Shown here in pieces: positions 14,961 through 53,105 of a stretch of DNA of 64,000 nucleotides. The stretch lies in NCBI GenBank assembly GCA_025463515.1, contig JAODAQ010000028.1, positions 1-64,000 on the forward strand, read 5' to 3'. The notes under the pieces were generated by a model. The model saw nothing but the letters and a program-made list of their open reading frames with translations, did no database searches and was not told where the DNA came from. Every line of letters starts with the position of its first letter. The first letter of the stretch is position 1. The translations under genes were made by a program, and so were the position numbers. The DNA is from Rhodoglobus sp. Lineage in GTDB: Bacteria; Actinomycetota; Actinomycetes; Actinomycetales; Microbacteriaceae.

Positions 14961-15035
14961 TGGTGGGCGGTACTGGGATCGAACCAGCGACCTCTTCCGT
15001 GTCAGGGAAGCGCGCTACCGCTGCGCCAACCGCCC
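14961..15035 (-). tRNA. tRNA-Val (anticodon GAC)
   Basis: A complete cloverleaf of 75 bases, including an encoded CCA end. The acceptor stem starts GGGCGGT, the D arm GGCGCAGCGGTAGCGC, and the anticodon stem CTTCC/GGAAG closes a loop with GAC. The T arm is GCTGGTTCGATCCCAGT. It is the last gene of a leftward Gly-Cys-Val cluster. Confidence 0.95.
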
Positions 15036-15049
15036 ATTACTTGAGTGGA

Positions 15050-15085
15050 GTTTGTTTGCGAAATCCGAAGGATTTGCAAACAAAC
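15050..15085 (-). other. AT-rich hairpin between tRNA-Cys and tRNA-Val
   Basis: GTTTGTTTGC (15050-15059) pairs exactly with GCAAACAAAC (15076-15085). Inside it AAATCC (15061-15066) pairs with GGATTT (15070-15075) around a 3-base loop, leaving one bulged G. The 16-bp stem is markedly AT-rich for this genome. It lies within the tRNA transcript, so a processing or stability role is possible. Confidence 0.6.
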
Positions 15086-15089
15086 ACCG

Positions 15090-15160
15090 AGGTGACGACC
15101 GGATTTGAACCGGTGTACACGGCTTTGCAGGCCGTTGCCTCGCCTCTCGGCCACGCCACC
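15090..15160 (-). tRNA. tRNA-Cys (anticodon GCA)
   Basis: 71 bases. The acceptor stem GGTGGCG pairs with CGTCACC, the discriminator base is U as expected for Cys, and the anticodon loop reads CTGCAAA with GCA. CCA is not encoded. Middle gene of the Gly-Cys-Val cluster. Confidence 0.94.
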
Positions 15161-15215
15161 GCGTGCAGGAGGGCCGGGGCTACTAAAACATCAGCAGAAC
15201 TGACACTCCTACTCG

Positions 15216-15287
15216 AGCGGATGACGAGATTCGAACTCGCGACCCTCACCTTGGCAAGGTGATGCGCTACCACTGCGCCACATCCGC
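15216..15287 (-). tRNA. tRNA-Gly (anticodon GCC)
   Basis: 72 bases. The acceptor stem GCGGATG pairs with CATCCGC, the D arm is GGCGCAGTGGTAGCGC, the anticodon stem CACCT/AGGTG encloses GCC, and the T arm is GCGAGTTCGAATCTCGT. The discriminator is U and CCA is not encoded. It is the first gene of the leftward cluster. Confidence 0.94.
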
Positions 15288-15312
15288 ACTGCCGCATTTC
15301 TGCGACTAGATG

Positions 15313-15342
15313 ACCATAGCCGATGTTCGGGGACGGAGCCAA
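15313..15342 (-). promoter_or_regulatory. Likely promoter of the tRNA-Gly-Cys-Val cluster
   Basis: On the leftward strand TTGGCT (15337-15342) and TATGGT (15313-15318) are separated by 18 bp and lie about 25 bases upstream of tRNA-Gly. The match to a sigma-A promoter is fair, not strong. Confidence 0.4.
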
Positions 15343-15405
15343 TCGTGTGACAGGCGGGTCGCGATCCTGTGGCAGGATACTTATTGCCGCTGAAAAGCAG
15401 GCCGC

Positions 15406-15478
15406 GGGCGATTGGCGCAGTTGGTAGCGCGCTTCCTTCACACGGAAGAGGTCATCGGTTCGAGTCCGGTATCGCCCA
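15406..15478 (+). tRNA. tRNA-Val (anticodon CAC)
   Basis: 73 bases. The acceptor stem GGGCGAT pairs with ATCGCCC, the D arm is GGCGCAGTTGGTAGCGC, and anticodon stem CTTCC/GGAAG encloses CAC. The T arm is ATCGGTTCGAGTCCGGT. It is divergent from the other three tRNAs and complements the GAC isoacceptor; CCA is not encoded. Confidence 0.94.
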
Positions 15479-32301: not shown

Positions 32302-32381
32302 CGAAAACGCAGGAGATTCTCGCCCTACGGCCCGCCCAGTGATCATGGCGGCCGTTTCGCGCGGGATCTCCTGCGTTTTCG
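32302..32381 (-). repeat. 80-bp palindromic element, copy 1 (inverted orientation)
   Basis: Left arm CGAAAACGCAGGAG (32302-32315) and right arm CTCCTGCGTTTTCG (32368-32381) are perfect complements with a 52-base core. The strongly conserved 19-base arm is on the left here, so the copy is inverted relative to copies 2-5. The right half forms the last twelve codons and stop of the DUF559 gene. Confidence 0.9.
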
Positions 32382-33278
32382 TTTTGGGGGCGGGCGATAC
32401 GGATGCACGCGCCGACGTGCGGCGAGGGCATCCGCGTCAGCTATTGCACGTTCGATGGCAGCGAGCACCGCGGGCCAGGCGCCCAGCAACTGCCGGTAGG
32501 TGATCCGGATAGTCTTGCCGCCCAGGGCCGCGATCGCCACGTCGCGCTCGTGGTCCTTCTCCCACTGACCGGGATCGCCGTGCTGGTCGCCGTCGACCTC
32601 GACGTAGAGGTTCTTGCGCAGCCGGAAGTCGAGCCACCCCACCCCGGCGACCTTGATCTGCTGCTCGCACTCGATGCCAGCGTCGCCCATCCAGAGGCGC
32701 GCGAAGGTCTCACCGTGGGATTCGTCCAGCGCGGAGGCGAGCCTCCGCCACGCCCGCCCCCGAACGGGCGCCCGCTCGAAGACGAGGTCGAGCTCCCATT
32801 CCCGCAGCGCGCCAGAGTGGAGCGCGGCGCTGCACGCGGCGACCGCGATATCCCGACCCTCGACCTGCAGTACCGCGACGAGCGCGTCAGCGACACTCAC
32901 CCGCCAAGGGCTCGCACTCGACCGGTGACTCCAGTGCACCGCCACACCCGACAGGCGCGTCAGCCGCTTGCGGCGGTCAGTCGGGCGGCGCAGCCGACAC
33001 GCCGTGGGGCGGACTGCGACCTGCAGCCGCGTTGGCCGAGGGACGAGCAGTCCGTAACTCTCGAGGGCCGACAGGGCCGTCAGGCGACCGCCAACGCGCA
33101 CGGCCCGGATGCCGGATTCCGGAGCGTCGGGGACCGAGTACCATCCCTGCCGCACACGGAAGATGCGCTTGCGCTCGAGCGCGGACTTGAGTTGGGCATC
33201 CGTGTACCCCATCGCCAGCAGGTCGCGGCGACGCAGGAAGAAGTCGTGACGGCGGATCACTCGCTCGACCGGAATCAT
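32343..33278 (-). CDS. AbiEi-like winged helix fused to DUF559 (PD-(D/E)XK-type nuclease) domain
   Basis: It has 311 residues from ATG 33278. Residues 1-110 resemble the AbiEi antitoxin-type winged helix (GYTDAQLKSALERKRIFRVR and QGWYSVP). Residues 205-275 are a DUF559/Vsr-like nuclease fold with Asp217 (GWLDFRL), Glu227 and Asp229 (YVEVDGDQH), then DHERDVAIAALGGKTIRITY. The last twelve residues (KRRRSRAKRPP tail) are encoded by palindromic element copy 1, and copy 2 lies 73 bp upstream of the start. Function unproven: a single-stranded or mismatch DNA nuclease or a toxin-antitoxin relative is possible. It is absent from the usual neighbourhood, so likely acquired. Confidence 0.82.
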   Translation of the reverse strand: MIPVERVIRRHDFFLRRRDLLAMGYTDAQLKSALERKRIFRVRQGWYSVPDAPESGIRAVRVGGRLTALSALESYGLLVPRPTRLQVAVRPTACRLRRPTDRRKRLTRLSGVAVHWSHRSSASPWRVSVADALVAVLQVEGRDIAVAACSAALHSGALREWELDLVFERAPVRGRAWRRLASALDESHGETFARLWMGDAGIECEQQIKVAGVGWLDFRLRKNLYVEVDGDQHGDPGQWEKDHERDVAIAALGGKTIRITYRQLLGAWPAVLAAIERAIADADALAARRRVHPYRPPPKRKRRRSRAKRPP

Positions 33279-33351
33279 GCGCCCATGCTCCCCGCCCGGC
33301 GCGTGCCCGGCGCTCGGATGGGCGGCGCCCGTGGACAACCCCCGCCGCTGC

Positions 33352-33431
33352 CGAAAACGCAGGAGATGTCACGTGAAAGAAGCGTCCCGAAGCGGACCGG
33401 GGCATTTCAGCGTGAATCTCCTGCGTTTTCG
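33352..33431 (+). repeat. 80-bp palindromic element, copy 2
   Basis: Arms CGAAAACGCAGGAG (33352-33365) and CTCCTGCGTTTTCG (33418-33431) with a 52-base core. The core begins and ends with a further imperfect inverted repeat (CACGTGAAAG and TTTCAGCGTG). It lies between the DUF559 start and the stop of the aldo/keto reductase gene. Confidence 0.9.
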
Positions 33432-38586: not shown

Positions 38587-38666
38587 CGAAAACGCAGGAG
38601 AAGCGGCGTGAAAGCGCCCGGATGCACCCGCCAACGCTCTCCGCGGGCAAATCTCCTGCGTTTTCG
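38587..38666 (+). repeat. 80-bp palindromic element, copy 3
   Basis: Arms CGAAAACGCAGGAG (38587-38600) and CTCCTGCGTTTTCG (38653-38666), 52-base core. Part of the core (GGCGTGAAAG) resembles the same position of copy 2 (CACGTGAAAG). It lies between the acnA stop and the dxs start, 54 bp beyond the acnA stop. Confidence 0.9.
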
Positions 38667-48886: not shown

Positions 48887-51328
<2,442 letters not shown>

Positions 51329-51362: not shown

Positions 51363-51443
51363 CGAAAACGCAGGAGTTCTTGCCGAACGACGCCGTCTGC
51401 GGTGCACGAACGTGCGTCAGCGACAGAATCTCCTGCGTTTTCG
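51363..51443 (+). repeat. 81-bp palindromic element, copy 4
   Basis: Arms CGAAAACGCAGGAG (51363-51376) and CTCCTGCGTTTTCG (51430-51443) with a 53-base core. It fills the gap between the convergent parC and carboxylesterase stops, 34 bp after parC and 8 bp after the esterase stop. Confidence 0.9.
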
Positions 51444-53025: not shown

Positions 53026-53105
53026 CGAAAACGCAGGAGATTCGCCCGTTTGACGGTCGCGGGGACGGTATGTGGCCGATTTCAGCAGAATCTCCTGCGT
53101 TTTCG
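53026..53105 (+). repeat. 80-bp palindromic element, copy 5
   Basis: Arms CGAAAACGCAGGAG (53026-53039) and CTCCTGCGTTTTCG (53092-53105), 52-base core. It lies between the two esterase genes, 9 bp after the stop of paralogue 2 and 44 bp upstream of the start of paralogue 1. Confidence 0.9.

Follow-up and report, generated by a model that had tools for sequence, protein, structure and literature searches.

Judged from sequence, the locus studied here is one of a set of gene and palindrome pairs, in which a gene for a protein with an AbiEi-type winged helix and a DUF559 domain lies between two copies of a short dispersed element. The arm sequence of this element differs between lineages and tracks the protein tree. 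The pairing itself is almost certainly real. It is read as a REPtron- or REPIN-like partnership, in which a predicted Vsr-like PD-(D/E)XK nuclease takes the place of the HUH RAYT and would bind, cut and mobilise the element. The window was the whole 64,000-nucleotide stretch analysed, and its source genome was a draft assembly of 3.32 Mb in 78 contigs.

The gene, its protein and the element

The first-pass annotation had placed the gene between two element copies, had described an AbiEi-like domain joined to DUF559, and had noted that the gene and one copy were merged; these observations held. Both copies were 80 bp long with perfect 16-nt arms, and the twelve final codons lay within copy 1 (Table 1). 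An alternative TTG start at 33338 would extend the protein to 331 aa. The neighbouring genes, named from their translations, presumably encode a fadB-like protein and an aldo/keto reductase.

Table 1. Coordinates of the gene, the element copies and the second palindromic family.
Feature	Position	Strand	Remarks
AbiEi-type winged helix + DUF559 (Vsr-like PD-(D/E)XK) protein	32343..33278	-	311 aa from ATG
AbiEi_4 winged-helix region, residues 5-50	33129..33266	-	below Pfam cut-off; weak-model Foldseek match 6y8q
DUF559 match, residues 216-279	32442..32633	-	E190, D217, E227, D229, D242 conserved family-wide
Last 12 codons, read out of element copy 1	32346..32381	-	C-terminal RKRRRSRAKRPP
Element copy 1, 3' of gene	32302..32381	.	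16-nt arm + 48-nt interior + 16-nt arm; holds gene 3' end
Element copy 2, 5' of gene	33352..33431	.	16-nt arms, 48-nt interior unlike copy 1
Dispersed copy	38587..38666	.	G007 has an element at the corresponding site; none found in G014, G019 or G012
Dispersed copy	51363..51443	.	81 bp, one arm mismatch
Dispersed copy	53026..53105	.	arm search
Degenerate candidate copy	50841..50923	.	13-nt core, 2+1 mismatches
Second palindromic family, AAATGACGGA arms, 76 bp	G000:C36 (L054), C26, C38, C57, C65, C74		DUF559 paralogue partner

The window protein matched the Pfam model AbiEi_4 at 23.7 bits, just below the cut-off of 25, and DUF559 at 21.3 bits (cut-off 20.6); four and three of the five aligned orthologues, respectively, matched these models. 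Overall the Pfam matches comprised AbiEi_4, DUF559 and MTES_1575, and no HUH/Y1 tyrosine transposase was found at the gene between the repeats. DUF559 is still listed by Pfam as a domain of unknown function; among 14 control genomes, only Caulobacter vibrioides and Corynebacterium glutamicum matched it. Five acidic residues were conserved among 79 proteins (E190 in 79, D217 in 78, E227 in 77, D229 in 78 and D242 in 78), and these are predicted to be catalytic-type residues as in a Vsr-like/PD-(D/E)XK nuclease. The structure models, built from five sequences, were weak (full length: mean pLDDT 62, pTM 0.42; nuclease domain: mean pLDDT 68, pTM 0.65). Foldseek searches with these weak models ranked NGO0050 and the homing endonuclease domain of I-Bth0305I, a member of the EDxHD class, highest (E 7e-3 to 2e-2, probability 0.98-1.00); in the full-length search they were followed by the AbiEi antitoxin 6y8q (E 0.13-0.32). 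A PDB sequence search with a five-row profile gave no match at E<=1, and tblastn against plasmids and phages gave none at E<=1e-5.

The element had the architecture CGAAAACGCAGGAGAT-N48..50-ATCTCCTGCGTTTTCG, with near-invariant arms, unrelated interiors and a distance of 64-66 bp between the arm starts. About 21 copies were counted in the window genome. The 15-nt arm occurred 11 times in the window at <=2 mismatches (0.14 expected) and 43 times genome-wide at <=1 mismatch (reversed control 0), and by reading of the match list 40 of the 43 were accounted for by ~80-bp pairs. The own-genome set comprised 21 of the 23 copies found in the stretches taken; G000:C5:89165 and G000:C30:36444 were left out, with 4 and 5 arm mismatches. 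A 102-bp candidate in L095 was also discarded, being a second start of one element. Fifteen of the 21 own-genome copies were 80 bp long, four 81 bp and two 82 bp. Their arm columns were identical in 37-42 of 42 arms; among the 80-bp copies (n=15), interior columns were shared by 5-14. No consistent target-site duplication was detected, a 7-nt direct repeat being present at 1 of 69 copies. Interior folding had a mean z of -0.56 against mononucleotide shuffles, not clearly beyond the shuffles. Rfam at gathering thresholds found only four tRNAs in the whole window; their genes were clustered at 14964-15478.

Closely spaced elements, 34-148 bp from one another and differing in their interiors or sharing them in part, were present at L044 (7713-7906), L046 (12546-12775) and L047 (6760-7067). 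A coding-looking, similar sequence with arm-like ends occurred in two genomes (L045 6445-6525; G372:C70:37167-37243), and it was probably a chance look-alike in a conserved gene and not an element.

Recurrence of the pair and agreement between arms and proteins

A pattern scan of genome_contigs returned 39 stretches, all titled Microbacteriaceae or one of four genera of this family. In four of them, from four genomes, tblastn found orthologues of 47-60% identity between elements. Relatives at E<=1e-50 were present in 21 of 398 Microbacteriaceae genomes, and these together with G007 and G012 from the genus made up the orthologue set (n=23). When an element was defined by one of six arm types with <=3 mismatches over both 11-nt cores, it was found close upstream in 20/23 and close downstream in 22/23 orthologues, and 30 sets of shuffled cores flanked at most 1/23. 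The expectation that the architecture would recur between copies in element-bearing genomes was thus borne out, and the gene without flanking copies was rare.

The few incomplete cases were as follows. L115 and L123 had no close upstream copy, and their contigs ended 494 and 121 bp upstream; for L121 there was only a 3-mismatch candidate 631 bp away. The nearest downstream candidate of L128 was 1165 bp off. The stop codon lay inside the downstream element in 16/23 orthologues. In L126, L127 and L133 the reading frame ran right through that element, and in L130-L132 it stopped 39-128 bp before it.

A de novo flank test, in which no arm was named, required palindromes of 56-110 bp on both sides sharing >=10 consecutive arm bases. 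It was passed by 18/23 orthologues, 20/56 paralogues and 1/3000 random intervals from the fetched stretches. An earlier, narrower version gave 16/23 orthologues, 12/33 paralogues and 20 of ~2000 random intervals, the latter drawn from the window itself, which contains a real element pair; outside real element pairs, the wider version gave 0/600.

The first-pass annotation had also proposed a REP/RAYT-like layout with the two copies in opposite orientation. Its flanking part stood (20/23 and 22/23), and the inverted orientation was not confirmed. At the 21 orthologous loci with both copies, the interior likeness was 0.478 in direct and 0.467 in inverted comparison, inverted being better at 10/21. 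The outer ends of the window copies matched directly (20 nt) and also inverted (26 nt, 96%). No orientation of copies 1 and 2 can be defined, because the element is a palindrome with an unrelated interior.

Six arm types were present among the orthologues (AAAACGCAGGA, AAAACGAAGGA, AAAACTGAGGA, AAAACGACGGA, GAAAGCGAGGA and AATTCGACGGA), the first four of which the family-wide pattern was able to show in any genome. Among the matches listed, the dispersed arms were of the gene-flanking type in 10/10 orthologue-bearing genomes (G055, G106, G125, G141, G165, G178, G299, G338, G342 and G426), single mixed copies in G342 and G426 being the exceptions. For G034, G109 and G155 there were counts only (6, 10 and 17 pattern matches). 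Eight more genomes agreed in arm type (G000, G007, G012, G048, G051 with 12 copies, G301, G374 and G428), which is weaker evidence because each was searched with a pattern made for its type. The AATTC arm type of G301, G374 and G428 escapes a pattern with a required leading G, which found 0 matches there; 220 kb of fetched sequence from these genomes contained 11 pairs of it, against 0 with shuffled cores.

Arm types were assigned from the arms before the protein tree was built. This was a quick tree of 79 sequences with SH-aLRT only and 17 open forks; both it and the paralogue counts exclude the short fusion L057 and the duplicates L185, L190 and L194. On the tree, 47 typed tips with 21 types required 21 changes (shuffled minimum 30), the seven types with >=2 tips required 7 (shuffled minimum 18), and the 23 orthologues alone required 6 (shuffled minimum 9). 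The arm of L115 was type B with 2 mismatches, and the number of changes was the same without L115 and L128. The AAAACGAAGGA type was spread over more than one clade.

Some DUF559 paralogues were flanked by palindromes of their own. In the window genome, the paralogue L054 had flanking arms AAATGACGGA, and a search from these arms revealed a second family of seven matches on six contigs (reversed control 0). Six of the seven were exactly 76 bp and one was 60 bp; two flanked L054, the 60-bp one included, and five lay elsewhere. That this predicted family was found dispersed in its own genome supports the pairing. The 138 kb taken from G007 contained the AAATGACGGA arm beside that genome's own paralogue and at one further place. 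A third arm type (P3, AAATGCAGGA) was confined to the gene that it flanks, with 2 pairs in 138 kb. In the strict test, 36/56 DUF559 paralogues had no matching palindrome pair. A class-wide search passed 18/394 genomes in all and yielded only two loci from one other family, neither of which had a pair sharing >=10 arm bases (best 9, in L184); the pairing was therefore seen within Microbacteriaceae only.

Gene and element presence had been expected to track each other, which was partly the case. At least one pattern match was found in 26/398 genomes (reversed control 0). Gene and pattern occurred together in 15 genomes, the gene only in 6, the pattern only in 11 and neither in 366 (Fisher p = 6e-16, relatedness ignored), and orthologue-bearing genomes had 4 to 73 matches. 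Four of the gene-only genomes (G051, G301, G374 and G428) had copies with arm types of their own at sites other than the gene, G233 had a variant arm beside the gene, and G281, 82% complete, had an element at the gene 3' end. Against strict tracking, 11/26 genomes with an element match had no orthologue at E<=1e-50. Three of these (G104, G218 and G267) had a single match only. G254 (12 matches), G134 (6) and G210 (11) were 98, 98 and 99% complete, and G175 belonged to the same 98-99% complete group; orphan element families are therefore real. Lacisediminihabitans profunda also has the element, and no orthologue was found in it. Profile matches in G448 (2e-54) and G254 (8e-53) were outside the orthologue clade and had other arms, and ten stretches around orphan elements (G210, G372, G448, G401, G254, G175 and G199) contained no DUF559 relative at E<=1e-6. 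Elements were clustered at G210:C26:7166-10302 (L263), where 2/3 had unlike arms (AAAACGAAGGA vs TCCGTCGTTTT) and the 20 kb taken had no DUF559 relative.

Proposed mechanism and alternative explanations

The best overall explanation is probably recognition of the arms by a Vsr-like nuclease that maintains or spreads the elements. The winged helix-nuclease protein would recognise the near-invariant 16-bp arms, inverted and at a fixed distance of 48-50 bp, probably as a dimer that sits either on duplex DNA or on an extruded hairpin. It might then nick or cut at the arms, and repair or strand transfer could copy or maintain the element at extragenic sites. Action of the protein on the arms, which the first-pass annotation had proposed for it or a relative, is very likely; that it drives the spread of the element is somewhat more likely than not.

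Close relatives showed empty sites, that is, presence or absence between species by gain or loss. The arrangement of the window, in which gene and elements follow the fadB-like gene, was shared by G007 and G012. Both gene and element were absent, with the fadB-like and reductase genes adjoining, in G014 (89% nucleotide identity there), G019, G003, G008, G013 and G016. In G024, G006, G002, G022, G021 and G023, no element was present in the stretch taken and the reductase was not found there. By eye, three of the empty sites (L231, L232 and L233) carried a GC-rich hairpin in the gap between the reductase gene and the fadB-like one, as if the element replaced a terminator.

Gene calls from a simple GC-position rule placed 49 of 69 copies (gene-flanking ones included) in intergenic DNA and 11 within a predicted ORF; the other 9 were at an edge. 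The 49 intergenic copies comprised 27 in tandem, 16 in convergent and 6 in divergent gene pairs; the background pairs numbered 220, 74 and 74. These placements bear on an unlikely alternative, namely that the arms are operators to which the AbiEi-type winged helix binds, the copies at its own gene serving autoregulation and the dispersed ones forming a regulon or acting as terminators, with the nuclease domain used elsewhere and no mobilisation of elements. Such a role would be in keeping with AbiEi domains, which bind inverted repeats in the promoter of their own gene, with the upstream element, 75-262 bp before the start codon at the 20 loci with a close copy, with the almost constant arms at matching places, and with the GC-rich hairpin seen by eye between convergent genes in the locus-free G014, G019 and G003. 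However, the second copy overlaps the gene 3' end, which is unexpected for an operator, and copies favour tandem or convergent over divergent pairs. The catalytic-type residues are also kept across lineages of differing arm type.

Nine comparisons of matching places, which were not independent, showed 27-32 of 32 arm bases kept and interiors of 0.31-0.65 identity, against 0.36 (sd 0.06) for unrelated copies. In four of the nine the interiors were at background likeness, and independent arrival there is therefore possible. Interiors were more alike within genomes (0.487) than between them (0.424; 0/1000 permutations), an effect driven mainly by two assemblies and to which genome base composition could contribute. 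By eye, the 12 JANYGT loci (L074-L111) shared an interior motif in variants of TCGAGCAAAA...TTTTGCTCGA, and the JAODMT loci L076, L089 and L093 shared TTCACCAC...GTGGTGA. Such genome-specific motifs suggest within-genome copying or conversion.

Conversion would also be at work if the nuclease cut sites whose element was missing or damaged and an intact copy then served as the repair template that restored the arms, so that the elements underwent concerted evolution as protected marks and were not transposons. This homing or genome-marking explanation is improbable. The weak models do resemble a homing endonuclease domain, arms stay near-identical as interiors drift at the same place, and the interior likeness within genomes fits conversion equally well as transposition. 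Set against this, clean empty sites occur in gene-free close relatives, and element-free sites are therefore tolerated without the gene; no recognisable pre-site was defined either. That the elements are ordinary terminators or mobile debris, two of which came to enclose the gene by chance or through hitch-hiking, is barely credible: copies are mostly intergenic and 36/56 paralogues lack a matching pair in the strict test, but chance as such was already refuted by the de novo flank test (1/3000 random intervals vs 18/23 orthologues) and the shuffled-core test, the arm type tracks the protein, and the predicted second family was found.

Comparison with known systems

The element and gene resembled REP/REPIN-RAYT systems most in anatomy. 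A REPIN consists of a pair of invariant, inverted 16-mers whose starts are 71 bp apart, with a variable spacer whose length matters (PMC3116915), and RAYT genes lie between two inverted REPs, often very near or immediately downstream of the gene, with REPs usually at >100 copies (PMC2817692). Here too, copies of a palindrome dispersed outside genes lay on both sides of the gene, there were several gene-repeat pairs per genome, and the repeat sequence co-varied with the gene. The near-invariant inverted 16-mers stood at a fixed distance around a variable spacer, and the copies were mostly extragenic. The differences were a shorter start-to-start distance than the 71 bp of REPINs, arms that began CGAAAAC or variants and had no GTAG/GTGG head at their ends, copy numbers that remained below the usual REP figure, and no clear interior hairpin. 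The protein was predicted to be an AbiEi-type winged helix with a DUF559/Vsr-like PD-(D/E)XK domain and not an HUH/Y1 tyrosine transposase. Since the enzyme is unrelated, the window system is not a member of the REPtron family, despite the close anatomical match.

The same nuclease fold is predicted, from weak models, as in Vsr-like nucleases, I-Bth0305I and the Caulobacter VsrA. DUF559 has been reported in VsrA, on which the DNA damage response in cells without cytosine methyltransferase depends (PMC12907096). Unlike the system described here, Vsr, I-Bth0305I and VsrA are tied to mismatch repair or homing, and the accessible parts of the sources name no dispersed palindrome partner for them. 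With the AbiEi antitoxins of type IV toxin-antitoxin systems the protein shared the N-terminal winged helix (AbiEi_4 in 4/5 orthologues), and it differed from them in its nuclease-type C-terminal domain. Among titles and abstract starts of the open-licence literature, no link of DUF559 or AbiEi proteins to dispersed palindromes was found, which is weak evidence of absence.

The cognate dispersed element is a concrete candidate substrate for these DUF559 proteins, readable from the flanks of the gene, and the natural variety of arm types supplies arm-swap controls. We lean towards, with limited confidence, a second, non-homologous REPIN-RAYT-like class, in which Microbacteriaceae AbiEi-DUF559 nucleases would each drive their own palindrome family. 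The joint claim, with parallel pairs per genome, arm-protein co-evolution and perhaps occurrence in other bacteria too, is held with the same guarded preference. Spread or maintenance of the elements by the protein would mean at least two origins of REPIN-like systems, with unrelated enzymes, and the role of such repeats for the genome could then be tested in a second, independent system. CGTC-tagged REPs are short dispersed palindromes that 'apparently lack a dedicated transposase', and C. crescentus is among the species that have them (PMC3733652). The match of Caulobacter vibrioides to DUF559 stands beside these CGTC REPs of C. crescentus, and a link between the two is a question raised only. 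Should the second class exist, repeat families at present described as having no enzyme of their own could turn out to have DUF559-like partners.
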